The translations under genes were made by a program, and so were the position numbers. Positions 1,097 to 19,970 of a DNA stretch of 64,000 nt are shown here, piece after piece (positions within the stretch are counted from its first letter, which is position 1; each line of letters opens with the position of its first letter). Source of the stretch: Vibrio gallicus (GTDB taxonomy: Bacteria; Pseudomonadota; Gammaproteobacteria; Enterobacterales; Vibrionaceae); contig NZ_AP024872.1 of NCBI RefSeq assembly GCF_024346875.1, forward strand, positions 620,001-684,000, read 5' to 3'. The notes beneath the pieces are model-generated. The model was given only the letters and a program-made list of their open reading frames with translations. It was not told where the DNA came from and searched no databases.

Positions 1097-2984
1097 CTTC
1101 ACTGCCGCACAGGCAGCTTAGAAAAAAGGAAGAACTGTGTCACGCAAATTACAAGACTTCACTGCCGCACAGGCAGCTTAGAAATGTTTTGGGTGCAAGC
1201 ATCTTGAAGTAAAGGACTTCACTGCCGCACAGGCAGCTTAGAAACATAAATGCCGCATGTTGGCATCATCAATCAGCTTCACTGCCGCACAGGCAGCTTA
1301 GAAAAATGCGGCGAACATAATCACGAATAGCAGAATCTTCACTGCCGCACAGGCAGCTTAGAAATCCTAGAAAATTGAAGTTAATCAACTTAGCAACTTC
1401 ACTGCCGCACAGGCAGCTTAGAAAACTATAGCAGGATCACAAACAGTAAAATCATACTTCACTGCCGCACAGGCAGCTTAGAAAAATAGAAGAGCCATCC
1501 ATAGCGGAAGTGTTACCTTCACTGCCGCACAGGCAGCTTAGAAACAAACGACGAGTAAAAGCATCATTATGATAACCTTCACTGCCGCACAGGCAGCTTA
1601 GAAAACTAAACCACTGAGTAGAACGACCAAGAAGAGCTTCACTGCCGCACAGGCAGCTTAGAAACGCATTTGGGTCAAAAGAACCTACATCAAAAGCTTC
1701 ACTGCCGCACAGGCAGCTTAGAAATAAGTGATGCTAGTCTGAAGGCTTCTTGTAAGCTTCACTGCCGCACAGGCAGCTTAGAAATCGAGGCGCGCATTAC
1801 TTAATGCGCTCGTATCCTTCACTGCCGCACAGGCAGCTTAGAAATCGCCGCTTCCGTACAAAAAGCAGCGACCAAACTTCACTGCCGCACAGGCAGCTTA
1901 GAAAATAATAAGCTGTGGCTTTTTCACTGATACTGGCTTCACTGCCGCACAGGCAGCTTAGAAAGTGAAAGCTGATGATCTCGTTGCGTGGGATGGCTTC
2001 ACTGCCGCACAGGCAGCTTAGAAAAATGGAAAGCGACCCAATAGAGCGACAGATAACTTCACTGCCGCACAGGCAGCTTAGAAAGCTCCGGTGGAAATGG
2101 CCGCAGGGCAAGCGGTCTTCACTGCCGCACAGGCAGCTTAGAAAAACCACGGTCGAGCGCACGACAATTACAGTGACTTCACTGCCGCACAGGCAGCTTA
2201 GAAAGCCGACTTTGAATGCGGGATGTAGGCCGGTGCCTTCACTGCCGCACAGGCAGCTTAGAAATAATTCACCTAGGTCAATGTATAACTTAACGCCTTC
2301 ACTGCCGCACAGGCAGCTTAGAAACAATGATAGACATTATCGCTGGTAATATCGCACTTCACTGCCGCACAGGCAGCTTAGAAAGTTGATGCGGGTACTG
2401 CGGGTACGTTTGCTGACTTCACTGCCGCACAGGCAGCTTAGAAAACCAGCTTCGATTGTCTCCACAGCAATGGCCACTTCACTGCCGCACAGGCAGCTTA
2501 GAAAACAATCACTTCGTCCTGTGCCGGCGCTGTCGCCTTCACTGCCGCACAGGCAGCTTAGAAATAAACCGGTCACGTCGGCATGTGGGATCGTGTCTTC
2601 ACTGCCGCACAGGCAGCTTAGAAAGCAGGTCCAATTGATCAGCGGCGCGAAAGTACCTTCACTGCCGCACAGGCAGCTTAGAAAAATGATTGATCAACAA
2701 GTCAATGCGGTGTCAGCTTCACTGCCGCACAGGCAGCTTAGAAAAATAAAATATCAGCATCCTCATTAGGATCTTTCTTCACTGCCGCACAGGCAGCTTA
2801 GAAAACGCGAACATCACTTCCCATCCGTGCCTGCTCCTTCACTGCCGCACAGGCAGCTTAGAAAGATAACGTTCACGAGCGGAAATTCGTATACCCCTTC
2901 ACTGCCGCACAGGCAGCTTAGAAATCAAGAAATTTCGGGTGTCGATGTCTCGGAGCCTTCACTGCCGCACAGGCAGCTTAAAAA
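1097..2984 (+). CRISPR. Type I-F CRISPR array 1: 32 repeats, 31 spacers
   Basis: A 28-base repeat begins at 1097 and recurs every 60 bases to 2957, leaving 31 spacers of exactly 32 bases. The repeat starts CTTCACTGCC, contains the Csy4 hairpin stem CTGCC/GGCAG with loop GCACA, and ends CTTAGAAA, the 8-base crRNA handle. Only the last repeat (2957-2984) shows a change, GAAA to AAAA at its end, which is normal decay at the leader-distal side. No two spacers in this array appeared identical. Repeats and spacers match the type I-F proteins encoded downstream. Short open frames running through the array are artefacts of the 60-base period. Confidence 0.98.
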
Positions 2985-3349: not shown

Positions 3350-4321
3350 ATGAAAGACTTTTCACCCAGTGATATGAAAACCATTTTGCACTCAAAACGT
3401 GCGAATTTGTATTATCTGCAACACTGCCGCGTGCTGGTGAATGGGGGGCGTGTCGAATATGTGACAGACCAAGGCAAAGAGAGCCTGTATTGGAATATCC
3501 CGATTGCTAACACAACCAGCATTTTATTGGGCACGGGCACGTCGGTAACGCAATCCGCGATGCGCGAGTTTGCGAAAGCAGGTGTCTTGGTTGGCTTTTG
3601 TGGCGGCGGTGGTACACCGCTCTTTTCTGGCAACGATGTTGAGGTTGATATCGCTTGGTTGACACCGCAATCGGAGTACCGTGCAACGGAATATCTACAA
3701 AAGTGGGTAAGTTTTTGGTTTGATGATGATAAACGTTTGGCCGCTGCAAAACAGTTTCAGCTAGTTCGGCTCGCCATGATAAAGAAGCATTGGCTATCTA
3801 CTAGCGTACAAAAAGAGTTCCCTGTAACTGAAGCTCAGTTAACCCCTGTCTTATCCCGCTTTGAATGTTTATTGTCTGATTGCAAAACCGCACAAGACGT
3901 CTTGTTGCTTGAAGCAACAACCACCAAAACCCTCTATAAACTCGCTTGCCAAGCGGTCGGCTATGGTGACTTTACTCGTTCAGAGCGTGGCAACAGTCTC
4001 GACACAGCAAATCAATTTCTCGATCACGGGAATTACTTAGCTTATGGATTAGGCGCAACGGCATGTTGGGTAATTGGCTTACCACACGGTTTAGCTATTT
4101 TACACGGGAAAACACGCCGAGGAGGCTTGGTGTTCGATGTCGCTGACATAGTGAAAGACGCACTGGTACTGCCACAAGCTTTTATCGCGGCAATGGCTGG
4201 GGATGATGAGCAGGAGTTTCGCCAACGCTGTCTCAACCAACTGCGCTCTGGTAATGCGTTAGATGTGATGATCGATACCTTGCAGTCTACGGCCGAAGAC
4301 TGCGCGGATATGACACAATGA
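3350..4321 (+). CDS. cas1: CRISPR-associated integrase Cas1 (type I-F)
   Basis: Cas1 forms the spacer integration complex with the Cas2 domain of the next gene and inserts new spacers at the leader. The 323-residue length fits type I-F Cas1. The expected metal-binding residues are present: Glu188 in LLLEAT, His252 in AILHGK, and Asp263/Asp266 in VFDVAD. The stop overlaps the next start as ATGA at 4318-4321, so cas1 and cas2-3 are translationally coupled. The start at ATG 3350 follows AGAGAAACACGAGC, a weak ribosome site. No sign of damage. Confidence 0.97.
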   Translation: MKDFSPSDMKTILHSKRANLYYLQHCRVLVNGGRVEYVTDQGKESLYWNIPIANTTSILLGTGTSVTQSAMREFAKAGVLVGFCGGGGTPLFSGNDVEVDIAWLTPQSEYRATEYLQKWVSFWFDDDKRLAAAKQFQLVRLAMIKKHWLSTSVQKEFPVTEAQLTPVLSRFECLLSDCKTAQDVLLLEATTTKTLYKLACQAVGYGDFTRSERGNSLDTANQFLDHGNYLAYGLGATACWVIGLPHGLAILHGKTRRGGLVFDVADIVKDALVLPQAFIAAMAGDDEQEFRQRCLNQLRSGNALDVMIDTLQSTAEDCADMTQ

Positions 4322-7300
4322 ATATTTTGCTTATCTCCGAATGCAGTAAACAAGCGTTAGTAGAAACTCGTCGAGTACTGGACCAATTTGGTGAGCGAAA
4401 GGGGCAACGTACATGGCAGACCCCAATCACTTACGAAGGCATGAAAACCTTACGCATGCTATTGAAAAAGCGTGCACGGAAAAATACCGCTGTGGCATGC
4501 TATCGAATCTACGGCAAAAACCACACCGAACTAATGTGGGTAGTGGGTAAACGCAGCAAGTTCAACCTAGAAGGCACAGTGCCTACAAATCGAACTCAAC
4601 GCAATATCCTTCGGGCAGGTGACGAAAGTAACATGCACAGCAATCAGGCTATTGCGCTAATGGCAGGTATTGCAGGGTTATTTCATGATTTTGGTAAAGC
4701 CAATGCCTTATTTCAGGAAAAGCTACGTGGTAAAGGTGAAGGGTTTGAACCATACCGCCACGAATGGATCTCCATGCAGCTTTTTATCACCTTCGTTGCA
4801 GAGCGCGATGATAAAACCTGGCTTCAAGCTTTATGCGATCTAAAAGCGGGTTGTGATCAGACCGTCTTGTCGAGCTATACGCTAACTAAGAGTGTGAAAT
4901 TTGCTGACATTGCCACTCACAGCCCACTTGCGGCGGCTATTGCATGGCTGATTGTGTCCCATCACCGTTTACCTCAACAGCAAGCGCCCAACGCACCCAA
5001 AGGAGATTTGAATAAGGCAGATACTTGGATAGACCAAGGTATCGGCGTGGAATGGAATGCCATTAACCATAAAAGTGGCAAATTTTCCGAAACAACAACC
5101 CAACAATGCAGTGAGTTCCCCTTTGGATTACCCATGCAAAGTCGCACTTGGCGAGCAAAAGCAACCGCTTTAGCAACACGCGCCTTACAACTCCCGAATT
5201 TAGCTGAATACGCTCGCCTTGAGTGTGCTTATCCAATGCATGTAGCCCGTATGGTACTCATGCTTTCCGATCACGCTTACTCATCCGATAACGCCCATGA
5301 GCATTGGCAAGACCGAGAATATAATGCCTACGCCAACACAGATAGAAAGACACGCCACCTCAAACAGAAACTGGATGAACACTGCGTTGGTGTCGCACAC
5401 AATGCCTACCTGCTTGCCAAAGTACTGCCAAGCCTGCGCAGTGCATTGCCCACGTTAATTCGCCATCCGATACTCAAAAAACGAGTGATTGACCCTAAAT
5501 TTCGTTGGCAAAATCGTGCGTATGAGGTGTTAGCCGGAGAGAAAAACCGTGCACAGGAACAAGGGTTATTTGCGGTACTCGCAAGCTCTACAGGTACAGG
5601 CAAAACCATTGCTGGTGCGAAGATGGCGTATGCGTTAGGCGATCAACATCAGGGTTGCCGCTTTAGTGTCGCGCTAGGTTTGCGCACTTTAACTTTGCAA
5701 ACAGGTGATGCCCTACAAGAGGCACTACACTTGGACGACGATGACATTGCTGTGACCATTGGCTCACAAGCGGTTAAAGATCTATATGAGCAAAACAAGC
5801 AAGGCGCTGACGAGAACAAAACGTCTGAACATACTTTTACAGGCAGTGAGTCGCAACAGATGTTTGACGAGGACTATGTCAAATACGACGGTGAGTTGGA
5901 TAACACCTATTTAAATCGTTGGCTTCAAGACAAAAGTCGCGCAAACCTGCACAAATTAATCAGTGCCCCCATTTCCGTAAGTACTATTGATCACCTTATC
6001 CCCGCGACTGAAGGTGTACGAGGCGGACGTCAAATTGGCCCTATGCTACGTCTAATGACCAGCGATTTGATCCTTGATGAACCGGATGATTTTGATGTGA
6101 CCGACCTGCCTGCATTGTGCCGCTTAGTGTATTGGGCTGGTTTGTTGGGATCGCGGGTAATCCTCTCTTCGGCTACATTGCCACCGGCATTGGTTAGTGA
6201 GTTGTTCGACGCCTACCAACATGGGCGTAAGCAATTCAATGCCGCCAACGCCCATCCTACAACGGACGCGGTGGTGACTGCATGGATTGATGAATTTTCT
6301 GCGATGAGCCATTTAGTTACCGATAAAAAGGACTTTGAGGCTAAGCACAACAACTTCATTGATGCTCGTGTTGACCAACTTGCTAAAGCAAGTGAACCTC
6401 TGCATCGAGGCGCGTTGGTTCAACTAAAAGAAGAAGACATTAACCCCGTCGATGCCTTTGCGACCGCAATATTGCAGCATGCTCAAGCTTTATCCCATCA
6501 ACATTGCACAGTAGAAGGGACAAAAACCTTCTCGGCGGGACTAGTGCGTATGGCCAATATCGAACCCATGCTTGCGGTTGCCAATCAATTGTTTACGCGC
6601 TCACCTGATCCCGATACCCGTATTCACTATTGTGTTTACCACAGCCAACAGCCTTTAGTGGTACGCTCAAGCATAGAAAACGCATTAGATAGCTTACTCA
6701 AACGCGATCCCAGCACCTCGATCATGGCGCACCCAACGGTGCAAGAAATGCTAGCAGACTACCCTGAAAAACATCATATATTCGTGGTGTTAGCAACGCC
6801 TGTTGCGGAAGTCGGGCGCGATCATGACTATGACTGGGCCATCGCAGAACCAAGTTCTACTCGCTCGATCATTCAATTATCAGGACGGGTGCAGCGACAT
6901 CGTCGCCTAGCCCCTTCTTTACCCAATATCCTAATTTTTAATAAAAATTTCAAAACTTGCCAAGGCGTGACACCCGCTTTTTGTCAGCCGGGATTCGAAT
7001 CCACTGAAGAGTACTGCGCAAAGCTTAGCGAGCCAAGTAATAAGAGGTCATGGCTGCTCTTACGAAGCCATGACCTCGCCGAACCATCATTGCTTGCACA
7101 GGATGCATTTGGTGTGATCAGCGCAGCGCCACGCGTTAAGCAGCCACAGCGACTAGTTAACCCAAGCACGAAAACAGCAGCAGGGTTTATTGAATTAGAA
7201 CACCTAGCGTTAAATCTCAACTTGCGTGATAAAGGCCGCGTGTGGTGGACGTCCTCTTACTCACATCTTTTTGGTGAAATTCAACGGCAAACTAAATTCC

Positions 7301-7629
7301 GTCAAAGTGCCCCAAGTGTTGAGTATGTGCTGGATGTAGACGTTCAAGGCACCGAGGTGAAGTTGTTGGTATGGGACGATCTCGGCAAACAACTGTTAGA
7401 TCAAGACAAGATCGAACTTGCCCCACCACTCTCGCTCGCCGAAGGAATCAATGCTTTCGGTCACGGAAATCTCACTGAACAAGTACAAAACTTGGCAGAA
7501 CAACGAGATATCGAATTTGAAGTGGCGCAACGTCGTTACAGCACAATTCAATTGCGCGACCTAGGTAACGGCAAAAAATGGCGTTATTCACCACTGTTGG
7601 GAGTATTTGAAGGAAAGATTGCAGGCTAG
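4318..7629 (+). CDS. cas3: Cas2-Cas3 fusion nuclease-helicase (type I-F)
   Basis: The fused protein is the type I-F hallmark. It serves in adaptation through its N-terminal Cas2-like domain (about residues 1-95) and in interference as the helicase-nuclease recruited by the Csy complex. An HD nuclease domain follows, with LFHDFGKA near residue 120. The helicase has Walker A STGTGKT near 425, a DEPD box near 586 in place of DEAH, LSSATLPP near 617, and QLSGRVQRHRR (motif VI) near 852. At 1103 residues it is the usual length. All key motifs look intact, so the system should be able to cut DNA. Confidence 0.97.
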   Translation: MNILLISECSKQALVETRRVLDQFGERKGQRTWQTPITYEGMKTLRMLLKKRARKNTAVACYRIYGKNHTELMWVVGKRSKFNLEGTVPTNRTQRNILRAGDESNMHSNQAIALMAGIAGLFHDFGKANALFQEKLRGKGEGFEPYRHEWISMQLFITFVAERDDKTWLQALCDLKAGCDQTVLSSYTLTKSVKFADIATHSPLAAAIAWLIVSHHRLPQQQAPNAPKGDLNKADTWIDQGIGVEWNAINHKSGKFSETTTQQCSEFPFGLPMQSRTWRAKATALATRALQLPNLAEYARLECAYPMHVARMVLMLSDHAYSSDNAHEHWQDREYNAYANTDRKTRHLKQKLDEHCVGVAHNAYLLAKVLPSLRSALPTLIRHPILKKRVIDPKFRWQNRAYEVLAGEKNRAQEQGLFAVLASSTGTGKTIAGAKMAYALGDQHQGCRFSVALGLRTLTLQTGDALQEALHLDDDDIAVTIGSQAVKDLYEQNKQGADENKTSEHTFTGSESQQMFDEDYVKYDGELDNTYLNRWLQDKSRANLHKLISAPISVSTIDHLIPATEGVRGGRQIGPMLRLMTSDLILDEPDDFDVTDLPALCRLVYWAGLLGSRVILSSATLPPALVSELFDAYQHGRKQFNAANAHPTTDAVVTAWIDEFSAMSHLVTDKKDFEAKHNNFIDARVDQLAKASEPLHRGALVQLKEEDINPVDAFATAILQHAQALSHQHCTVEGTKTFSAGLVRMANIEPMLAVANQLFTRSPDPDTRIHYCVYHSQQPLVVRSSIENALDSLLKRDPSTSIMAHPTVQEMLADYPEKHHIFVVLATPVAEVGRDHDYDWAIAEPSSTRSIIQLSGRVQRHRRLAPSLPNILIFNKNFKTCQGVTPAFCQPGFESTEEYCAKLSEPSNKRSWLLLRSHDLAEPSLLAQDAFGVISAAPRVKQPQRLVNPSTKTAAGFIELEHLALNLNLRDKGRVWWTSSYSHLFGEIQRQTKFRQSAPSVEYVLDVDVQGTEVKLLVWDDLGKQLLDQDKIELAPPLSLAEGINAFGHGNLTEQVQNLAEQRDIEFEVAQRRYSTIQLRDLGNGKKWRYSPLLGVFEGKIAG

Positions 7630-7644
7630 ATCTACCCAGCCTGC
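7621..7644. terminator. Hairpin overlapping the cas2-3 stop
   Basis: GCAGGCT (7621-7627) pairs with AGCCTGC (7638-7644) across a 10-base loop. No strong T-run follows on either strand, so it is at best a weak terminator for cas2-3 (plus) or for the crRNA-like RNA on the minus strand. Confidence 0.35.
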
Positions 7645-7714
7645 AACTACCTGTTCGGTAGTAAACTTAAACGTGTTTCAAGTATATTTCTTAGCTACTT
7701 GTTCAGTAGTTGGC
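7639..7714 (-). ncRNA. crRNA-like mini-array targeting the csy1 promoter (creR/creA-like)
   Basis: Read on the minus strand, a degenerate repeat (7714-7687), a 20-base spacer-like segment (7686-7667) and a second degenerate repeat (7666-7639) lie in the cas2-3/csy1 gap. The first matches 18 of 28 repeat bases. It keeps the hairpin through two paired substitutions (CTACT/AGTAG) and ends in the handle CTAAGAAA. The second matches 16 of 28, keeps the hairpin CTACC/GGTAG and has lost the handle, which is not needed at the 3' side. The spacer-like segment matches 16 of 20 bases at 7775-7794, next to GG at 7795-7796 (a CC PAM on the minus strand). Mismatches are at spacer positions 6, 10, 12 and 20; 6 and 12 are positions that type I complexes flip out. 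Csy4 could process it and Csy could bind without cleavage. Function is inferred. Confidence 0.82.
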
Positions 7715-7717
7715 TGA

Positions 7718-7746
7718 ATTTTAGAACAGAAGAAGGGAGTAAACAA
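7718..7746 (-). promoter_or_regulatory. Predicted promoter of the crRNA-like RNA
   Basis: On the minus strand a -35-like TTGTTT (7746-7741) is 17 bases from a -10-like TAAAAT (7723-7718). Initiation about seven bases further would start the transcript at the edge of the first degenerate repeat, as expected for a minimal mini-array. Confidence 0.6.
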
Positions 7747-7765
7747 GCGTACTACTTCTCTACTC

Positions 7766-7796
7766 TTGATTACTATAAACGTTTATCATGTATAGG
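7766..7796 (+). promoter_or_regulatory. Predicted csy operon promoter and self-target site
   Basis: A -35-like TTGATT (7766-7771) is 17 bases from TGTATA (7789-7794). The segment 7775-7794 is the 16/20 match to the mini-array spacer, with GG at 7795-7796 supplying the type I-F PAM on the minus strand. Bound Csy complex would cover the -10 region and most of the spacer, so occlusion of RNA polymerase is the expected outcome. The promoter is about 60 bases upstream of csy1, which has the strong ribosome site AGGAGG at 7846-7851. Confidence 0.65.
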
Positions 7797-7855
7797 TTGA
7801 ACTGGAATTTGCTTTTCTGTATATTGTTTACGACTTAACCAGTATAGGAGGTGGC

Positions 7856-9139
7856 ATGCCATCATTATTAACCGAGCGAATTGTTGCCTATATTGCCGAG
7901 CGCAAGGCAATAAAGCAGGAAGCGCTCGATAAAGAGATCAGTAAGGCGAGCGACGACAATACGTTACTTGCCCAGCTGTCTGAGAAACAAATCAAACTAA
8001 ATTCTGATTTTGACATTAGTGCATGGCTTGACGGTGCGGCAAAGCGGGCAGGACAAATCAGCATGGCGACTCACGCTGTGAAGTTCACTCACAGTGCGGC
8101 AAAAGGGAGCAATGTACTAGCGGAACAAATGGGCAGGGATGATCGCTACTTAGATACTTTTTGCTTGAGTCAACCTGCTGTTGATGCGGTAGGAAATGCA
8201 GCAGCGTTAGATGTGGCTCGCCTATTGCAATTGGTAGATAGTGACAACAAAACGTTATTGGAGTACCTAAAACAAGGTGATACAACACCACTTCGTACAC
8301 TGACCATTAATGAACAACAACTCACTAGTTGGCAGGAAGGCTTATCTGCTGCCTTGCAAGATAGCGCGCCAAGCAGCCATGCACTCAGCAAGCAAGTTTA
8401 TTTCCCTGTTGAAAGTGACCCTTCGGGCTATCACTTGTTAGCACCGATGTACTCATCTTCTTTGTCTCAAGCTGTCTACCAGAAAATTCAACATAGTCGT
8501 TTTAGTCAAGAGATGAAGGCGATACGTACTGCGCGTAGAGAAAAACAAGCGTCTGGTGAGGTATTGGTAGCCTACCCGAATGTCGCAGTGACGATAGCAG
8601 GTGGATCCAAACCGCAGAATATCTCGCAGCTTAACTCTGGCCGAGGCGGTTTAACCTACTTACTCGATGCCCGAGCACCCCAATGGAAAACGCAGCGACC
8701 AAAACTAAGCAACACCTCAGTGATTTTCGAGCAGTATGCGTTTAGAAGTGCAGTACGCCCAATGATCTATCGGCTTGCACTGTTCATTAAAAACAATTTA
8801 GACGAAAAAAGCACATTGGCTCACCGTGAAAAACTAACCCAAAAGGTCGATGAGATTGCAGAAGCAATGTTCAATGTTGCAGCACCTTGGCAGGCTCAAA
8901 CTACTGGCTGGAGTGACGCCCACCCACAGCTTTCAGTTTATGCAGCTCGATGGCTTGATCCGAACCACACTAAATGGCAGCAAGACAACCTCGACTGGCG
9001 TGAGCCATTGAGTGCCGAATTTGGTTTATGGCTAAAAGACAGCATTGTCAATGCGGCTAAACGTGAGTTTGTGCTGAGTGCAGGTGAGAGTGATGAATGG
9101 CGACAGCAATTTAAACAACTGCTTTGGGAGGTACGTTGA
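7856..9139 (+). CDS. csy1: Csy1 (Cas8f), large subunit of the type I-F surveillance complex
   Basis: Csy1 pairs with Csy2 at the 5' handle of the crRNA and helps recognise the PAM. The 427-residue length and first position of the csy1-csy2-csy3-csy4 order identify it; the sequence is otherwise variable across the family. The start ATG 7856 follows AGGAGG at a 4-base spacing. The stop TGA (9137-9139) overlaps the csy2 start. The 226 bases upstream contain the mini-array and the promoter it appears to target, so csy1 to csy4 probably have their own regulated promoter separate from cas1-cas2-3. Confidence 0.92.
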   Translation: MPSLLTERIVAYIAERKAIKQEALDKEISKASDDNTLLAQLSEKQIKLNSDFDISAWLDGAAKRAGQISMATHAVKFTHSAAKGSNVLAEQMGRDDRYLDTFCLSQPAVDAVGNAAALDVARLLQLVDSDNKTLLEYLKQGDTTPLRTLTINEQQLTSWQEGLSAALQDSAPSSHALSKQVYFPVESDPSGYHLLAPMYSSSLSQAVYQKIQHSRFSQEMKAIRTARREKQASGEVLVAYPNVAVTIAGGSKPQNISQLNSGRGGLTYLLDARAPQWKTQRPKLSNTSVIFEQYAFRSAVRPMIYRLALFIKNNLDEKSTLAHREKLTQKVDEIAEAMFNVAAPWQAQTTGWSDAHPQLSVYAARWLDPNHTKWQQDNLDWREPLSAEFGLWLKDSIVNAAKREFVLSAGESDEWRQQFKQLLWEVR

Positions 9140-10071
9140 TGGCTTATTTAGTACTCAAGCACATAGAGGTTGCCAATGCCAATGCCATTTCCGGCATGAC
9201 ATGGGGATTTCCTGCGGTTAGTCACTTTCTTGGTTTTACCCATGCACTATCGCGAAAAGCGCAACAGCGCGATTATCCACTCACTTTGCACGGTTGTGGC
9301 ATCGTTTGCCATCAACATCAAGTGCATTGCTACCGCGATACCCCCTACGACCCGTATGGCTTCGCGTTAACACGCAATCCATTAACCAAAGAGGGCAAAA
9401 CCGCACCGATTGTGGAAGAAGGTCGTATGCACCTTAGCGTGTCGTTGATCATTGAGTGCGAAGGGTTGAACACCGCATGCGAAGAAACCCAACAGGCACA
9501 ACTCGACGACATTAAGCAACTCGCACTACAACACAAACTGGCGGGTGGCATGATAACGGATATTTCAGATTGCTACCTGTTCGATGAAGCCAATCATAAA
9601 CGGGCATTACGCAAACTGTTACCGGGTTTTGTGCTGGCTGATGCAAGCCATTGCTTATCAGAGTTAAATGCGGGTGACCCAAATAACGCCCTGCAACATT
9701 GGCTTGATTTTTCTGCGCTAAAACACGCCTGCGAAGTAAGCCGAGATGATGAAGGTGAAGAAACAATTGATTGGCAACGTGTCACCAACCCCTTTGGTGG
9801 CTATCTTGTTCCTGTACAAATCGGCTATAAAAAAATCGCCCCCACCCTAGCACCTGGCGAAGTCGCAAACGTCAGGGATACACAATCCCCTGTCAGTTTT
9901 GTGGAGTCGGTTTACAGCGTAGCAGAATGGATTGGCAGTCCAAGCCGCATTGATAGCCTTACTGACATTATTTGGAAATACGACTACAACGACCCGTTTT
10001 ATGTTTGTCATACCGCAACGGTGGTAGAAGCAGAGCTTGTGTCTGATGACGACATCGAATTCGATTTTTAA
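9139..10071 (+). CDS. csy2: Csy2 (Cas5f), crRNA 5'-handle binding subunit
   Basis: Csy2 is the Cas5-type RAMP protein that caps the 5' handle of the crRNA with Csy1. I place the start at ATG 9139, which overlaps the csy1 stop and follows GGGAGGT at a good distance, giving 310 residues, a normal Csy2 length. An alternative start at 9124 adds five residues and is less likely. The N-terminal segment with [17 protein letters not shown] and the HGCGIVCH stretch are typical of the family. The C-terminus is acidic. Confidence 0.92.
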
Positions 10072-10088
10072 GATTAAGAGATACTATT

Positions 10089-11075
10089 ATGACTAAATTA
10101 ACTACACCTTCTGTATTAGCCTTTGAATCTAAGTTAGCTTGCTCAGATGCATTGATGTTCGCAGGCAATTGGAGTCAGCGTGATAACACTGATACATGGC
10201 AAGCCGTTCATGTGATTGAAAAATCAGTACGTGGTACCATCTCAAACCGTGTAAAAGGCGCTAAGGCGAGCAAAATTGATGCTGAAGTAGAAAAAGCAAA
10301 TCTTCAAACCGTAGACAATGCTGCATTACCGTTTGATGCCGACACACTCAAACTGCAATTCACTCTACGTGTGCTTGGTGATCTCTCCACTCCATCTACC
10401 TGTAACAATCCAGAATATCAAACCGCGCTAGCGACGGTTATCCAGCAATACGTTGAAGAGAATGGTTTTAAAGAGGTGGCTCATCGGTATGCCACTAACT
10501 TAGCTAACGGTCGTTTCTTGTGGCGTAACCGTGTTGGGGCAGAGTCTGTAGAAGTTCGTATTTCTTATGCGAAAAAGCAATGGATATTTGATGCTCATAC
10601 GCTCAGCTTTAAAAACTTCGGAGACAACAATCAAGATTTATCGGAAATTGCTTCGCTTATCGAGCAAGGGCTGAACGGTGAAAAGGCGACACTATTGAAA
10701 GTCGAAGCGTTTAGTCAACTAGGTGACGGACAAACTGTTTTCCCTTCCCAAGAGCTGGTAATGAATACGGGCAGTGGCAATAAAAGTAAATATCTTTATC
10801 AGCTAAATGGTCAAGCGGCGATGCACTCACAAAAAATCGGGAATGCACTGCGCACCATTGATACATGGTACCCACAAGCCGATGAGTTTGGCCCAATTGC
10901 TATCGAACCCTATGGCAGTGTGACCAACCGTGGTGTTGCCTACCGGAAACCAAAAGAGAAAACGGATTTTTATAACTTATTGGACAATTGGCTATTGAAA
11001 GAAAAAGCGCCGGCATCTGAGCAGCAACACTATGTGATGGCGATGCTGATCCGTGGTGGCGTTTTCGGAGAATAA
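10089..11075 (+). CDS. csy3: Csy3 (Cas7f), backbone subunit of the type I-F complex
   Basis: Csy3 forms the six-copy backbone that coats the crRNA spacer. The 328 residues fit the family. The early segment [17 protein letters not shown], the stretch NRVKGAK and the later [16 protein letters not shown] are typical of Cas7f. The stop TAA (11073-11075) overlaps the first base of the csy4 start, so the two are translationally coupled. It lies 17 bases after csy2. A 20-nt guide, as in the mini-array, would recruit fewer Csy3 copies than a normal 32-nt spacer. Confidence 0.95.
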
Positions 11076-11632
11076 TGATGGACTATTACCTCGATATTCA
11101 GGTGCAACCCGACCCCGAAGTGTCGGGAGCGGTGTTAATGAATAACCTATTTGCAAAGTTTCACCGTACTATGCCGCAAACCGTCCCCGGTGAAGTGGCT
11201 ATAAGCTTCCCGAAATACCAACAATCGTTAGGTGATATAATTCGCTTTCATGGCAGTGAAACTAGCCTAAACAAACTAATGGCTCAGCCTTGGTTGAAAG
11301 GGCTACGTGATTACACTGAGGTAACAGATATCCGCGCTGTACCTACAGATGTGAAGGGTTATCGGACTATGTATAGGGTTCAGAAAAAATCAGCGAACAA
11401 CCGAAGGAAGCGCTCGATAGCAAAAGGTTGGTTATCTGCTGAGGAAGCGTTACAGCGAATCCCTGATACCTCGCAACAAATCTTGAAATTGCCATTTTTG
11501 CAATTTAAGAGCCTATCTACTGGACAAACTATGCGCATCTTTGTCGCATTAGGCGAGTTGGCTTCGGAGCCAACCATCGGCGACGTTAACAGCTATGGTC
11601 TAAGCCGCACCGCGACAGTACCTTGGTTCTAG
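11075..11632 (+). CDS. csy4: Csy4 (Cas6f), crRNA-processing endoribonuclease
   Basis: Csy4 cuts the repeat RNA at the base of its hairpin and stays bound to the 3' stem-loop. The protein (185 residues) follows the P. aeruginosa Csy4 pattern: MDYYLDIQVQPDPE at the start, the catalytic His at residue 30 (29 from the second Met) in FAKFH, an arginine-rich helix in the middle (NNRRKRSIAK), and a C-terminus ending YGLS...VPWF. Its gene runs directly into the leader of array 2. A decayed copy of its last ~150 bases lies before array 1. Confidence 0.96.
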   Translation: MMDYYLDIQVQPDPEVSGAVLMNNLFAKFHRTMPQTVPGEVAISFPKYQQSLGDIIRFHGSETSLNKLMAQPWLKGLRDYTEVTDIRAVPTDVKGYRTMYRVQKKSANNRRKRSIAKGWLSAEEALQRIPDTSQQILKLPFLQFKSLSTGQTMRIFVALGELASEPTIGDVNSYGLSRTATVPWF

Positions 11633-11767
11633 TCCATGAACCCTTTTTTCAAGGCTGTTGTAACTCTTTGATTTTTAATCATTATGAACAGAGCCAGAAA
11701 AAAGGGTTTTTCTATAAAAATACCCATAAGTTCTTTAACAACAAGCTATTAGACGATATTATCTCCA
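11633..11767 (+). promoter_or_regulatory. CRISPR leader of array 2
   Basis: Leader between csy4 and the first repeat. It matches the array 1 leader almost base for base, including AACCCTTTTTTC (11639-11650) and its reverse complement (11697-11708). The inverted repeat may act as a transcript end for csy4, as a leader hairpin, or as a binding site for an integration factor; the sequence does not decide. Confidence 0.8.
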
Positions 11768-12504
11768 CTTCACTGCCGCACAGGCAGCTTAGAAAAACGC
11801 GTATGGGAAGTTTTGTACCCACACAAACTTCACTGCCGCACAGGCAGCTTAGAAAAAGCATATTCTGGGCGAGAATCGTCAGGGAGCCTTCACTGCCGCA
11901 CAGGCAGCTTAGAAAATCACTGTAATTTCGTGCGATAGCGTGACATCCTTCACTGCCGCACAGGCAGCTTAGAAAAGTTGCCACCACGAAGCGGCAGACG
12001 CTCGCCACTTCACTGCCGCACAGGCAGCTTAGAAAATAGAAGCTAAATGCCAAGAGCTTATTAAATACTTCACTGCCGCACAGGCAGCTTAGAAAAGAGA
12101 AAATATCTTCACCAGAAATCTTGACAGCTTCACTGCCGCACAGGCAGCTTAGAAAAATGGAAGTGGCGACAGGCTCAACAAATTCACCTTCACTGCCGCA
12201 CAGGCAGCTTAGAAAAGCATTACTACAACAGGGACAAAGATCTAATCCTTCACTGCCGCACAGGCAGCTTAGAAATAGTCTTACCTTTGCAGTAGCTAAA
12301 TCAAAAGCTTCACTGCCGCACAGGCAGCTTAGAAATTTAAAGCCAGCTGGCTGACGATAATTACGAACTTCACTGCCGCACAGGCAGCTTAGAAAAGCAT
12401 TACTACAACAGGGACAAAGATCTAATCCTTCACTGCCGCACAGGCAGCTTAGAAATAGTCTTACCTTTGCAGTAGCTAAATCAAAAGCTTCACTGCCGCA
12501 CAGG
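11768..12504 (+). CRISPR. Type I-F CRISPR array 2: 13 repeats, 12 spacers, distal end truncated
   Basis: Repeats identical to array 1 recur every 60 bases from 11768 to 12488, with 32-base spacers. Spacers 8 and 9 (after the repeats at 12188 and 12248) reappear exactly after the repeats at 12368 and 12428, with one other spacer between the copies. The 13th repeat stops after 17 bases (12488-12504), where the sequence becomes an integron attC half-site. The array has therefore been rearranged and cut at its distal end, while its leader end is intact. Confidence 0.97.
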
Positions 12505-14174: not shown

Positions 14175-14652
14175 TTAATTCAATCCTCCATAATTTGATA
14201 AAACAAAAATAACGCCACGTTTAGGTATGATACACGCTTGCCACTCGGTAGGGCGAAGAGAATCCAGCAAGCTTTTGAGTCTCTCGACACGCTCGGGTTA
14301 GAGCCATCAGTATGCATTTGACCGCTTCACGATATTTTTGGTATTCCTTAGTTTTCATGTCCAAATTGTTGTTGGTAAAAAGCATTATTATCAGCAGTTT
14401 CTAAAGCAGCACTAATCTAGCTTAGTTGCGACGTATCTTGTTGCACTTGGTAGATTGATCGTTCGGATTCTTCGCACAATAAGCGGCTATATCAATCTTA
14501 TCGGAGTTGTTGTTGGGCTCTGCTTCAGACGTAGTCATTCCAAATGTAAGAGTTAGTGAAAGAATTAGTAGTTCTACCTATTTTTTCTAAATCATAGTTT
14601 GTGAAATTATAAATCGTTTTCCTCTATGAATGGATACCACTTAAAAGTAGTA
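14175..14652. other. Mostly non-coding gap with a small decayed frame
   Basis: No intact gene is visible. A cassette-like end (CGTGGCGTTATT on the minus strand) lies near 14205-14218, just upstream of the MccF-like gene. A short minus-strand frame is described separately. The end of the gap leads into the octanucleotide repeat. Confidence 0.5.
14422..14538 (-). pseudogene. Small secreted-protein-like fragment
   Basis: A 38-residue frame (MTTSEAEPNNN... KCNKIRRN) ends at 14422. In frame upstream it reads ELLILSLTLTFG, which looks like the core of a signal peptide, before a stop. With no start for the hydrophobic part, this is probably the remainder of a small exported protein with two cysteines. 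It may be chance; no family was recognised. Confidence 0.3.
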
Positions 14653-14801
14653 TCATTATTTCATTATTTCATTATTTCATTATTTCATTATTTCATTATT
14701 TCATTATTTCATTATTTCATTATTTCATTATTTCATTATTTCATTATTTCATTATTTCATTATTTCATTATTTCATTATTTCATTATTTCATTATTTCAT
14801 T
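14653..14801 (+). repeat. Octanucleotide tandem repeat, 18.6 copies of TCATTATT
   Basis: Eighteen perfect copies of TCATTATT run from 14653 to 14796, followed by TCATT. The tract ends 10 bases before the ATG of the YagU-like gene (14812) and is in frame with an upstream ATG at 14626. Long perfect octamer tracts change copy number by slipped-strand mispairing. Each step of eight bases shifts the frame of any translation from 14626 and changes promoter-to-gene spacing. Confidence 0.97.
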
Positions 14802-14811
14802 TAAAGAGTTC

Positions 14812-15348
14812 ATGATTAATATGTATTTTCTACACAAATCAACAGTAGAGTCTAGAAATATTAAATTAGCAATTTTATCAGGTTTATTTCTTGGTTTTCT
14901 TTCTACGTTTACAAAATGGGGCTATGGTCATCCGTTCCCACCTTTTGAAGTAGGTATGATTGCTCCACCAGTACAGATTGCTGTTAATTGGTTAGGCTTC
15001 GATAAGGTATTATATACATGGTTAGGGCACCCTCAAGTATCTGGTATGATAGTTCATGGCGCGTTAGCTATTGCTTTTGGTGTTTTCTACGTAGTTGCTG
15101 CTGAATATTTTCCCCGTATAACTTATGCAAAAGGTATAGGTTATGGTATGTTTATCTTCTTATTTTTTCACGGTTTTCAAGTTCCATTGTTTGGTTTTAC
15201 ACCATGGCTATGGGATATGAGCTGGAAAGCATCATTTAGTGAAATATTCAGCCACATACTTACTTATTACACTTTACATGAAATGATGTGTGCGATTCGT
15301 TATCGAGTAATGGGAGCCCCATTAGCTTCTCTTGCAACTTACCGATAA
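14812..15348 (+). CDS. YagU-like (DUF1440) inner-membrane protein
   Basis: The protein (178 residues from ATG 14812) has four hydrophobic segments and resembles E. coli YagU, an inner-membrane protein linked to acid stress survival. It shares FTKWG and PPFE near the start, AEYFPRI after the third segment, PLFGFTPWLWDMSW, and SEIFSHILTYY near the end. Initiation at 14626 would add 62 residues that are mostly the translated octamer repeat (FHYFIISL units). That is an unlikely membrane extension and lacks a ribosome site, so I prefer 14812, preceded by AAAGAG. The repeat immediately upstream suggests phase-variable expression. Confidence 0.75.
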   Translation: MINMYFLHKSTVESRNIKLAILSGLFLGFLSTFTKWGYGHPFPPFEVGMIAPPVQIAVNWLGFDKVLYTWLGHPQVSGMIVHGALAIAFGVFYVVAAEYFPRITYAKGIGYGMFIFLFFHGFQVPLFGFTPWLWDMSWKASFSEIFSHILTYYTLHEMMCAIRYRVMGAPLASLATYR

Positions 15349-16137: not shown

Positions 16138-16497
16138 TTAAGCTGCTTCTCTTTCTGGATTTAAGTGAACGTCACCAACAGGTTCACAGTTTCTGATATC
16201 ACCTGGCCAGCGTTCAGGATTTAGCTCTTTTGCAGCGACTAATACCTCCGCTCGGCGCTTCAAGATCTCTTTATCTTTTCCATTGTGACGCTCTGAAGGC
16301 GTGACGTAATTCAGCTTACTGTGCTTGTGCTCGGTGTTGTACCAGCGTACAAAGGCTTCAATCCAACTTCGACTACTGTCGATTGTTTCAAAGCCCTTTG
16401 TTGGCCAGCTTGGCATGTACTTTACCGTGCGGAACAATGACTCAACATACGGGTTATCATCACTGACTCTTGGGCGACTATACGATGAAGTAATACC
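16138..16497 (-). pseudogene. IS3 orfB transposase, C-terminal part (split by IS66)
   Basis: These residues (ITSSYSRPRVSDDNPYVESLF... ) are the last third of the IS3-type DDE integrase: the segment before the catalytic Glu (NPYVESLFRTVKY) and the WYN and KLNYVTPSERH motifs. It joins exactly to the part at 18857 through the duplicated bases GTAATACC. The protein would be intact without the IS66. Confidence 0.9.
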
Positions 16498-16524
16498 GTA
16501 AGCGCGCAATTAAGCAGTAAGGCC

Positions 16525-18078
16525 TTATTCAGCCTCATCGATTTCCAGCGCCCACGGCATAAGATCGGTCAGATCATCTTGTGGCGATCGCATCGGCAGC
16601 ACTTTGAATAAGTGCACGAAGTAGTAATATGGATTGATGTTATTTGCACGACAAGTCATCACCAAGCTATACAAGTTAGCGCTCGCAGTCGCACCTTCAA
16701 CTGATGTTGAGAACATCCAATTTTTTCGACCCGTTGTAAACGGACGGATATCTCGCTCTGTCACATTGTTATCAATGCTTATGTCACCATCTTCTAGATA
16801 AGTGAGCAACTTCGGCCATTGGTTAATCGTATAATTTATGGCGAGGCCGATTTGACTTTTCGGCAGTACTTTTCCTTGGCTTTCCAGCAACCACTTATGG
16901 AACGTGCCTAAGATGGGTTTCGATTTTCGTTGTCGTAGATGTTGCCGCTCGACAGTGCTCAAGCCTTTAGCTTCCTGTTCAATACCATAAAGCTTTGCGA
17001 TAAAGCTGATGGCTTTCTCTATACGGCCCGATTTCTTCTTCGGTTGCGCTTTTTGTGCATCGGTAAATTTGCGTCTTACGTGTGCTAAGCACCCCGCTTG
17101 GCTAACATTATCGAGGCCGTTATAAGCTTGATAACCATCGGTGAGTAGGTAACCCGAGTAGCCACCAAGGAAGTCTTTAACACATTGCCCTGCACGACTT
17201 GGTTGATAGTCGTAAATGACCACAGGTTGTTTGGCGAACTCACCGCTACGATAAACCCACATATAAGATTTGCTTTGTGCTGAGCGCTCTTGCTCTCGCA
17301 ACACTTGAACGGTCGTTTCATCCGCGCAGATGAGTTTTTCATTCAGTAAATGAGCTTTCATTGCTTCAACGATAACGGTCACTTTACTGCCCAGTTGAAC
17401 ACACCAGTTTGCAAGCGTGCCTCGGCTTAACTCGATATCTGAGCGCTTTAAGATTTCAACCTGGCGATAAAGCGGCAAGGCGTCAACATATTTGGCCGTA
17501 ACTACCGCAGCGAATGCTTCAGGGCTGCCGATGCTTTTCGGGATCATGTTGGCAGGTCGAGGGGCGGTGACGATTTTGCTGCTGGTTTGTGTCTTTTCAC
17601 ACTGACGGCAGGCGTATTTCGTGCGCTCATGCCGCACGACGCTGACCTTCTGAGGGATGATTTTTAGCTCTTCCGAGACTTCAGTACCGCATGGATGTAG
17701 CGGTTCATTGCAGCATTCACAGTAAGGGGCATTGAGTGTGTGCTGATGAACTTCACGATCAAGCTCTACTGGTAATGGTTTTCGGCCTTTCTTGTGATGC
17801 TTTGGACTGGCTTTAGGTAAGGCATTTTGCTGCTCAGCTTCGTTAAACGTCCCTTTCGGGGCTTTTTCACTTTTAGCGGAGAAGCGCTTGGACTTACTTA
17901 AGTTAAGTTCCTCAAGAAGCAGCCGCATTTTATTCTCTAACTCAACCACTTCTTCTGATTGGGTATCAACTGTTTTTTTCAGTTCATAGTTCTCTTCCTG
18001 AAGCTTGAGTAGCATCGCTTTGAGTTGTTCTACATCATCAGGAAGTTCGGTCATTTTTTGGGGCTCGTCATCTGTCAT
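16525..18078 (-). CDS. tnpC: IS66 TnpC transposase
   Basis: The 517-residue DDE transposase of IS66 has an N-terminal coiled coil (about residues 10-65) and a leucine-rich helix LLLEELNLSKSKRFS near 70. A zinc-binding cysteine cluster follows (YCECCNEPLHPCG and YACRQCEKT). The catalytic domain contains ICADETTV, TDGYQAYN and NNVTERDIRPF, whose acidic residues form the active site. The stop is just inside the IS66 left end. Confidence 0.96.
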   Translation of the reverse strand: MTDDEPQKMTELPDDVEQLKAMLLKLQEENYELKKTVDTQSEEVVELENKMRLLLEELNLSKSKRFSAKSEKAPKGTFNEAEQQNALPKASPKHHKKGRKPLPVELDREVHQHTLNAPYCECCNEPLHPCGTEVSEELKIIPQKVSVVRHERTKYACRQCEKTQTSSKIVTAPRPANMIPKSIGSPEAFAAVVTAKYVDALPLYRQVEILKRSDIELSRGTLANWCVQLGSKVTVIVEAMKAHLLNEKLICADETTVQVLREQERSAQSKSYMWVYRSGEFAKQPVVIYDYQPSRAGQCVKDFLGGYSGYLLTDGYQAYNGLDNVSQAGCLAHVRRKFTDAQKAQPKKKSGRIEKAISFIAKLYGIEQEAKGLSTVERQHLRQRKSKPILGTFHKWLLESQGKVLPKSQIGLAINYTINQWPKLLTYLEDGDISIDNNVTERDIRPFTTGRKNWMFSTSVEGATASANLYSLVMTCRANNINPYYYFVHLFKVLPMRSPQDDLTDLMPWALEIDEAE

Positions 18079-18141
18079 TTCCCCTTAGTTTGACAGTGAA
18101 AAAGGATCGCTCAAGTCCAATGAGGTGATCAGTATCATCGC

Positions 18142-18504
18142 TCACACTTCTCGGCCATAAAGGGGCTGATGAGCCTTTGGGTTTTCAAGATTCAACCCAG
18201 ATAATAGCCAGTTAAGCTGTTGAGTAGATATGTGGATATGGCCCGCGGCTGTAGGCTTTGGCCACTTAAAGCGGCCTTTTTCGAGTCGGCGATAGTAGAG
18301 CCAAAAGCCGTTAGTGTCCCAAAAGAGAATTTTGATTTTATCTCGGCCACGATTACAAAAGATGAACCACGCACTGCTCAATGGATCCATTTCTAGCACA
18401 TCAGCGACAATGAGAGAGAGGCCGTCAATCGACTTTCTCATATCGGTAACCCCCGAGACGAGATAAACCGCGCCACTTGGGATCATTGCAGCGCCTTCAG
18501 CCAA
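18142..18504 (-). CDS. tnpB: IS66 accessory protein TnpB
   Basis: A 120-residue IS66 Orf2 protein required for transposition. Recognisable by VSGVTDMRKSIDGL near residue 17, FIFCNRGRDKIKILFWD in the middle and WLLSGLNL near the end. It overlaps the tnpA stop by 22 bases, a usual IS66 arrangement. Unrelated to the TnpB of IS200/IS605. Confidence 0.95.
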   Translation of the reverse strand: MAEGAAMIPSGAVYLVSGVTDMRKSIDGLSLIVADVLEMDPLSSAWFIFCNRGRDKIKILFWDTNGFWLYYRRLEKGRFKWPKPTAAGHIHISTQQLNWLLSGLNLENPKAHQPLYGREV

Positions 18505-18782
18505 GTTTGAATTTGAGAAAATGAAAGTGATGTCGGCAGCTCGGCGCGCACGCCATTAGGCAAATGTACAACGACCATTTCGCCACAAAAAGACGGTTGG
18601 CTATTAATGACCATTTGGTGCGCGACCTGTTCATTGTCAGTGTTCTTGAGCTTTTTTAGCCAATAGTGAAAAGTGGCGTAATTAATATCGTGCTTTTTAC
18701 AAAAGTCTGGAATAGAAAGTCCACCTTCTTGCTGCTTGGAGATGATGGCCGTCCAATGTTGGTGCTTTTCTGATTGAGTCAT
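18483..18782 (-). CDS. tnpA: IS66 accessory protein TnpA
   Basis: A 99-residue protein with an N-terminal helix-turn-helix (HWTAIISKQQEGGLSIPDFCKKH) and the YATFHYWLKKLK segment typical of IS66 Orf1. It is the first gene of the element and starts close to the right end. It probably binds the IS ends. Confidence 0.93.
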   Translation of the reverse strand: MTQSEKHQHWTAIISKQQEGGLSIPDFCKKHDINYATFHYWLKKLKNTDNEQVAHQMVINSQPSFCGEMVVVHLPNGVRAELPTSLSFSQIQTWLKALQ

Positions 18783-18856
18783 AGTTCCTCCATTTGTTTG
18801 GGAAACTATGACAAAGGCTTGCTGATATTAGAATGTGGGGTTAATTGCGCGCTTAC

Positions 18857-19494
18857 GTAATACCTAACTCTTCCATTTTTGCTTTGAACGTCAACGACTT
18901 CATCGGCGCACCATTATCTGAGTGAAGAACCAGAGCTTGATTGAAGCACTGCTCTCGCATCAACGTTCGTTGCAGAAGTTGTGACGCCAGCTCACCGCAT
19001 TCATGCTCATACACCTCATAACCCACGATTTTTCGACTGTAGATGTCCTCGATGACATACAGGTAATAGTGTTGGCCTCGAACTTTTGAAGGTAAGTAAG
19101 TGATATCCCATGTATAGACTTGGTTCGAATCTGTCGCTGTGTAACTTGTTGGCTTCGCTTGCTTCTGTCTACTCCTTTGACGACCTCGTTTGTGGAGTTG
19201 CCCCTGTGCACTCAGTACCCGATAGTAACTCGACTCAGAGCGGTTACACACCTCAATAATCGCATCACGCTCTTGCTGAGATAGCTTATTAGCAGGCTCA
19301 GGTCTGTTGCATTTCGGCCTTTTGTCAGCTTGAACTTCACTTTGCTGATACCAACGACGATATGTTCTCAAGTCAATTTGAACTTCATTGCAAGCAGGCT
19401 CTAAACGGCACCCGCCTTGCTTTGCCTTAAGGATAAGCTCCACTATGGTCTGCCTTTCATCGGTTGAGGTTAGTCGTCCTCTGGCTCTTCCCCG
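18857..19494 (-). pseudogene. IS3 orfB transposase, N-terminal part (split by IS66)
   Basis: It carries the HTH_21-like part (RTYRRWYQQ) and the first catalytic Asp of the rve integrase core (YTWDITYLP), then LVLHSDNGAP with the second Asp. The frame overlaps the end of orfA: RGRLTSTDERQ can be read in the -1 frame before the orfA stop, so orfA and orfB are normally joined by -1 frameshifting as in other IS3 members. The IS66 insertion ends this part after MEELGIT. Confidence 0.88.
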
Positions 19495-19970
19495 TAAAAG
19501 GCTCTCAGCTTTTTTCTTAGTACCAAGAGGGCGGCTGTTTCAGCGAGCGCTTTTTCTTTGAGTCGTAAATCTTTCTTCAACTCTTTGATTTCAAGTTTGT
19601 CAGCTTTAGCCTGCTTCTTTGCTTCAGCTTCCTGCTCTTTACTCGACTTAAACCCTTGCATACATTCGCTGCGCCAACTTTGGATTTGTTCAGGGAAAAG
19701 ACCTTTTTCACGACAATATTGGCTGAGTTCACTTTCGGTCATCGAGTAAGTCTCGGCAACAATGGCGAGTTTAGTTTGAGCAGACCACTGCTCTGATGAA
19801 GTGTTGCTATTTGGCACGGCGGCTCCTGAACGTCTGAGTTGCTGGCGCCAATGATACAGGGTCGCAGTGCTAATTCCTTCCTCTTCCGACACTTCTTTCA
19901 CTGACATCGAATAGGGAGGCAACAGCTTCTTCAATATAGCTTCTTTTCTTTCTACTGAGATACGAGACAC
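19470..19970 (-). CDS. IS3-family OrfA
   Basis: A 166-residue DNA-binding protein with two helix-turn-helix segments (VSEEEGISTATLYHWRQQLR near residue 25 and a second near 70-100) and a C-terminal leucine-zipper-like coiled coil (about residues 110-155) used for oligomerisation. The gene lies at the right end of the element and is open. Its partner orfB is broken, so the element is probably inactive on its own. Confidence 0.9.
   Translation of the reverse strand: MSRISVERKEAILKKLLPPYSMSVKEVSEEEGISTATLYHWRQQLRRSGAAVPNSNTSSEQWSAQTKLAIVAETYSMTESELSQYCREKGLFPEQIQSWRSECMQGFKSSKEQEAEAKKQAKADKLEIKELKKDLRLKEKALAETAALLVLRKKLRAFYGEEPEDD

Follow-up and report, generated by a model that had tools for sequence, protein, structure and literature searches.

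The gap between cas2-3 and csy1 in the type I-F locus of Vibrio gallicus carries, on the strand opposite the cas genes, a mini-array that is very likely a working cas-regulating element of the CreR type, in which a crRNA-like RNA would guide the Csy complex to repress csy1-4. Judged from its sequence, the guide of this mini-array probably enables the Csy complex to turn down its own production. If true, the supply of this type I-F immune complex is metered by the complex itself, through an RNA guide. The stretch of DNA under analysis, hereafter the window, comprises 64,000 nucleotides (contig NZ_AP024872.1, forward-strand positions 620,001 to 684,000), and the type I-F system that it holds is complete, with cas1, cas2-3 and csy1-csy4 all above the NCBIfam cut-offs. 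The gap itself measures 226 nt, from the end of cas2-3 (7629) to the start of csy1 (7856). The features of the locus are collected in Table 1.

Table 1. Features of the mini-array and of the type I-F locus around it, in positions of the window.
Feature	Position	Strand	Basis
CRISPR array 1	1097..2984	+	RF01317
cas1 and cas2-3	3350..7629	+	TIGR03637, TIGR02562 above cut-off
Terminator-like hairpin 3' of the mini-array	7618..7647	-	predicted; shuffles average 0.3
psiR2, degenerate repeat without handle, hairpin CTACC-GAACA-GGTAG	7639..7666	-	16/28; hairpin predicted
Guide, 20 nt, TATACTTGAAACACGTTTAA	7667..7686	-	16/20 against target; 0/20,000 permutations
psiR1, degenerate repeat, hairpin CTACT-GAACA-AGTAG	7687..7714	-	18/28 against array repeat; hairpin predicted
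8-nt handle of psiR1, CTAAGAAA	7694-7687	-	sequence
Mini-array promoter (weak), TTGTTT-N17-TAAAAT	7718..7746	-	8/12; -10 lies 14 nt 5' of the psiR1 stem
Target (protospacer), TATACATGATAAACGTTTAT	7775..7794 (7794-7775 as read)	-	16/20 match to guide
CC PAM (GG on the plus strand)	7795..7796	-	CC in 44/49 loci with no PAM demanded
csy1 promoter (putative), TTGAAC-N17-TATATT	7797..7825	+	sole promoter-like site in 7560-7900; shuffles average 0.7
Shine-Dalgarno (SD) sequence of csy1, AGGAGG	7846..7851	+	sequence
csy1 (cas8f), first gene of the presumed regulated operon	7856..9139	+	TIGR02564, 304 bits
csy2, csy3, csy4	9124..11632	+	TIGR02565, TIGR02566, TIGR02563 above cut-off
CRISPR array 2	11768..12455	+	RF01317

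The surroundings of the locus show some further particularities. The leader is duplicated, the 300 nt preceding each array (803-1102 and 11474-11773) being 81% identical, and array 2 holds one pair of adjacent spacers twice, as seen in a translated ORF that spans it. At 14653-14796, the 8-mer TCATTATT is repeated perfectly about 18 times close to the start of a 240-aa ORF (14626-15348); as the unit is not divisible by three, it could switch the frame of this ORF. A cluster of minus-strand ORFs at 16138-19970 looks by eye like putative insertion-sequence genes.

The mini-array is built from two degenerate repeats enclosing a short guide within the cas locus, as in CreR elements. A reading of this DNA made from the sequence alone had described a minus-strand pair of degenerate repeats around a 20-nt segment, hairpins preserved by paired substitutions, and a handle in the upstream copy only, all of which is confirmed. 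Relative to the stem of the array repeat (CTGCC/GGCAG), psiR1 has two double changes (CTACT/AGTAG) and psiR2 has one (CTACC/GGTAG), and a hairpin of 5 bp is predicted in each. The handle is kept in psiR1 only, where it differs from the CTTAGAAA of the arrays. Folded together with its terminator, the mini-array reaches a z of -4.7, with none of 200 shuffles equally stable, and without the terminator a z of -2.4 (3/200). Identity to the array repeat was dropped as stand-alone evidence, because 16/28 is reached at 30 places outside the arrays in the window, psiR1 and psiR2 included; a fragment at the end of array 2 even attains 20/28, above both. With repeat identity thus unremarkable, the case rests on hairpin, handle, guide and PAM jointly. 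A CRISPR array would have near-identical repeats and 32-nt spacers, whereas the repeats here match at 18/28 and 16/28 and enclose a 20-nt guide, against a 60-nt spacing in the arrays.

The pairing of the guide with its target beside the CC PAM, also claimed at the outset, exceeds chance. No permuted guide out of 20,000 reached 16/20 beside a CC in the gap, and 1 of 5,000 did so with the PAM rule removed. A search of the whole genome (3.5 Mb) for CC plus 17 guide positions (6, 12 and 18 omitted), with up to 3 mismatches, found the guide itself, the target (2 mismatches) and one more site, G000:C2:134133 (3 mismatches). The sequence-only reading had placed mismatches at the flipped-out positions 6 and 12; both are present, but the guide is also mismatched at 10 and 20. 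These four positions are among those that a mutation scan of the Acinetobacter CreA guide, in the excerpted text of PMC10097628, gives as unpaired (6) or dispensable (10, 12 and 20).

The principle of this pairing was followed across type I-F csy1 loci from several sources. A csy1 match was present in 21 of 196 genomes of the same genus, in 60 of 394 of the order (30 plus 20 more loci taken) and in 34 of 369 of the class (30 loci taken). GTDB representatives contributed 80 loci, kept from at least 538 relatives among the matches listed, and the remainder came from 6 viral contigs and from 6 of 19 plasmid and phage records. The Csy1 profile oriented 193 loci, and dropping a second copy of the window (L072) left 192, a sample of convenience rather than a random one, in which near-duplicates remain (189 different Csy1 rows) and csy1 starts were set by script and not checked individually. 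The scan looked for a 5-bp hairpin with a handle, followed by a guide whose CC-flanked match lies in the 1 kb preceding csy1, and scored 17 positions, ignoring 6, 12 and 18. The score therefore does not favour low matching at these three positions, but it inflates matching at the others. In view of the near-duplicates, per-position results were drawn from non-redundant sets of 50 and 49 loci; the 50 have guides differing at more than 4 positions and a score of at least 13/17. A second selection, independent of the scan score, asked for two hairpins and the handle, and sought an unweighted, PAM-free target over all 20 positions.

At a score of at least 13 on the better strand, the element is found in 59 of the 192 loci of this convenience sample with its near-duplicates, and 63 reach at least 12; a score of at least 14/17 is attained by 41 on the strand opposite csy1 and by 10 on the csy1 strand. 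None of the 192 reached 13 in any control, whether reversed sequence, three dinucleotide shuffles or a stretch inside csy1. The published CreTA locus of Acinetobacter sp. LoGeW2-3 (L196) was also recovered. In three loci (L012, L030 and L045) the element is visible at scores of 11, 11 and 12 and was counted as absent, and four others (L099, L183, L198 and L201, with 13, 12, 12 and 12 in a looser scan) look false by eye and are outside the 59.

The backbone of type I complexes flips out every sixth base, and the six-base rhythm of matching in the 50 loci is what this predicts. The guide matches in 50, 49, 50, 50 and 49 loci at positions 1-5 and in 16 at position 6; in 48, 45, 48, 46 and 47 at positions 7-11 and in 12 at position 12; and in 48, 42, 40, 42 and 45 at positions 13-17, followed by 20, 32 and 24 at positions 18, 19 and 20. 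Matching is thus 80-100% at positions 1-17 other than 6 and 12. Guides differ between loci, and each of the 50 has its best match in its own locus, ahead of all 49 others; handle, PAM and pairing are kept all the same, so that what is seen to be conserved is pairing as a principle. The second selection gave the same profile: in its 49 non-redundant loci, CC precedes the target in 44, positions 6, 12 and 18 match in 20, 14 and 19, and the other positions up to 17 in 37-49. That relatives retaining the degenerate repeats would lack the pairing had been named beforehand as the refuting outcome; instead, 60 of the 63 loci with two hairpins have a match of at least 13/20 in the corresponding region. 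This comparison strongly supports the proposal that a crRNA-like guide directs the Csy complex to its own operon.

That the mini-array is a functionless relic, two dying repeats around an old self-targeting spacer, is accordingly very improbable, the least likely of the readings considered. The unremarkable repeat identity in the window would fit such decay, as would the absence of the element from close relatives (see below), but change elsewhere has spared handle, PAM, seed pairing and hairpins, here and in the 50 non-redundant loci, and no control reaches the cut-off. As a separate observation, the distances from the handle to the second hairpin in the 50 mini-arrays peak near 25, 31 and 35-36. 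These peaks hint at steps of perhaps 5-6 nt, the footprint of one Csy3: in the 46 of the 50 loci whose second hairpin could be measured, a 6-nt period gives R 0.36 (Rayleigh p ~0.002), and 5.5 nt (R 0.55) and 5 nt (0.42) fit better among the nine periods tried.

The position of the target relative to the csy1 promoter had to be corrected. Overlap of the target with a predicted -10 of the csy promoter, as first proposed, is rejected, because the sole promoter-like site begins right after the PAM, at 7797, and 7775-7794 is not covered by any promoter with support. On the plus strand the PAM reads GG and directly abuts the -35 of that site; the partial, PAM-flanked guide match lies at this putative cas promoter, as in CreR elements. 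From the presumed start, a leader of ~25 nt containing the SD sequence leads to csy1. Since the promoter itself is one consensus match, with 0.7 expected from shuffles, the weight rests on the geometry in relatives, which is directly visible: among 38 loci with a minus-strand target, 20 have TTGA starting at an offset of 2-4 nt from the first base of GG, and no other single offset up to 39 occurs in more than one locus. Where the target is on the plus strand (12 loci), this geometry is absent, the protospacer there lying between CC and the gene.

This geometry also bears on whether the bound complex acts instead as a road-block, stopping read-through from cas1/cas2-3 and serving as an insulator that uncouples Cascade from Cas2-3. 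The target does sit between the two gene blocks, and gaps of at least 150 nt occur in 52 of 56 loci with the element against 34 of 124 without it (180 loci, the 12 of 192 that lack a cas2-3 end being omitted). The location of the PAM at the -35 in 20 of 38 loci nevertheless favours the local promoter, and the road-block, although compatible with a local effect, is improbable as the explanation in its place.

The promoter of the mini-array falls below the threshold of the scan that yielded the csy1 site. Across the 50 loci, the best -10 starts 13-15 nt ahead of the psiR1 stem in 31, compared with a mean of 3.8 and a maximum of 9 in 200 rounds of shuffling. A -10 so placed means that the RNA would start at the hairpin. 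We infer the following course of transcription, processing, binding and repression. The RNA would begin just 5' of psiR1, on the strand opposite the cas genes, and Csy4 would cut after each of the two hairpins. A mature crRNA-like RNA of ~48 nt (7694-7647) is expected from such cutting, consisting of 8 nt of handle, the 20-nt guide and 20 nt of psiR2 with its hairpin, rather than the ~60-nt species anticipated by the sequence-only reading. Csy1-4 would assemble on this RNA and bind the target, with the PAM-reading end of the complex meeting the -35 of the putative csy1 promoter. This would block RNA polymerase, and the complex would limit its own synthesis. Because the pairing is short and mismatched, Cas2-3 would not be recruited to cut. 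The block would be lifted by an abundance of array crRNAs or by anti-CRISPRs disabling the complex; such sensing of crRNA supply and relief by anti-CRISPRs may hold here by analogy with the CreR systems covered in the excerpts of two reviews (PMC12737573, PMC13131331).

The same gap can house something different. In Acinetobacter, according to the excerpted text of PMC10097628, the cas3-csy1 gap hosts an experimentally studied toxin-antitoxin pair (CreTA) guarded by the Csy complex, and the likeness to the window extends to the divergent orientation, two degenerate repeats, a 20-nt guide, the CC PAM and the mismatch at position 6. Position and architecture alone thus cannot separate a regulator from an antitoxin. 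Under this reading the mini-array would be a creA antitoxin guide, and the target promoter would drive a small toxin, creT, that halts or kills the cell once the Csy complex is lost. A divergent creA-like mini-array in the gap is indeed present, and a 16-codon ORF (ATG at 7789) overlaps the end of the target, but this ORF starts upstream of the promoter and lacks an SD sequence. The creT of Acinetobacter is an RNA toxin with an SD-led mini-ORF of 33 bp, in the same excerpts (PMC10097628), whereas the 59 nt between PAM and csy1 in the window, with their ~25-nt leader after the presumed start, were found to contain no SD-led ORF. On these grounds the locus is read as CreR-like and CreTA is disfavoured and unlikely here; as regards ORFs there is no toxin gene under the target promoter, though an RNA toxin with no ORF could lie there.

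Among the 59 loci with the element, the distance from PAM to csy1 is 57-66 nt in 10 (the window included, two of them near-identical), 74-88 nt in 3, 111-336 nt in 37 and 526-914 nt in 9. The 13 loci at up to 88 nt hold a single SD-led frame, a TTG frame of 9 codons in L109, while several of the long-distance loci have an SD-led ORF of at least 40 codons between PAM and csy1. An ORF of 48-59 aa lies between target promoter and csy1 in L031/L167/L172, L122, L123, L125, L124, L128 and L162, and the same kind recurs in L166, L176, L178, L182 and L189, in loci mostly from Enterobacterales. The products share a basic start, one hydrophobic stretch, a conserved P and a C-terminal F-S-I-x-S/T-I-like motif, and are candidates for a family of small membrane proteins whose expression the Csy complex would keep low. 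In L044, L051, L053, L056 and L057, where the mini-array is on the csy1 strand, an ORF of 106-107 aa occupies the same place, and L012, of the same genus as the window and with a visible mini-array, has one of 53 aa. Five of these cargo ORFs (three of 48-59 aa, one of 106-107 aa and that of L012) had no Pfam match up to E = 1.

The distribution of the element points to rapid turnover. In the five nearest Csy1 relatives (L010, L011, L110, L111 and L112, of 55-75% identity; L010 and L111 may be one genome), the gap is 29-35 nt long and the entire element is absent, not merely the pairing, so that the guide/target pair of the window has no close comparison. On a Csy1 tree (FastTree, 192 rows, with long-branch warnings), a minimum of 43 changes is needed to account for presence of the element, and well-supported branches force 35 of these; shuffled labels need 50.6 on average, and 4 in 500 were as low as the observed 43. 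The element is thus gained or lost quickly and clusters weakly. Loci of the short class are not clustered on the tree (12 changes versus a shuffled mean of 12.7). Most simply, the element in the window is a gain in its own lineage, with loss in the sisters possible. The gap DNA had no match in plasmids, and in a search of 227 genomes of the genus it matched, besides the window, G045 and G180, in neither case over the element: both matches cover the start of csy1, and that of G180 also the end of cas2-3. A tentative and rather speculative generalization is that the cas2-3/csy1 gap is an exchangeable control slot, in which a mini-array and promoter, with the PAM locked on the -35, are repeatedly gained and lost. 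The slot would carry either csy1 alone (CreR) or a guarded cargo gene, guide lengths would vary in Csy3 steps of ~6 nt, and CreR and CreTA would be two states of one element.

Among known systems, Racr (RNA anti-CRISPR) shares the mimicry of type I-F repeats and is processed by Cas6f, but its repeats are solitary and viral, and its product lacks the 5' handle and spoils assembly, as stated in the excerpts of PMC10651486. The element in the window, by contrast, has two repeats with a paired guide, keeps its handle and a PAM-flanked target, and sits in a complete cas locus on a chromosomal contig. The closest counterpart is CreR, a group of crRNA-like RNAs through which Cascade or Cas12a represses the promoters of its own cas genes, and which are sensitive to crRNA abundance and to anti-CRISPRs (PMC12737573, PMC13131331, in part). 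There as here, a mini-CRISPR partly matching a cas promoter turns the effector against its own genes, in our case as a prediction, and pairing is retained in relatives though guide sequences change. The types named in the excerpted texts are I-B, I-E and V-A (PMC12737573, PMC13131331, PMC12948488), whereas the window has a type I-F example in the cas2-3/csy1 gap. In the titles and abstracts of the literature searched, no CreR in a Vibrio type I-F locus is described, which is no claim that it is unpublished. Work by Shmakov and colleagues from 2023 reportedly covers standalone-repeat mini-arrays whose guides partly match the promoters of cas genes, cas8 above all, and is said to have tested a type I-F1 mini-array experimentally for its action as a regulatory guide. 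If so, the locus in the window is one more case of a described class, and the idea first proposed for it is right without being new. To that class the present analysis contributes a revised placement of the promoter, arguments against a toxin here and a pairing rule resolved by position over 50 loci, together with rules by which such RNAs can be sought: the presence of a handle, freedom from pairing at every sixth base, a CC adjoining the -35, and a -10 some 13-15 nt ahead of the first hairpin. CreR as a class has already been published, and the window holds a further, well-supported example of it.
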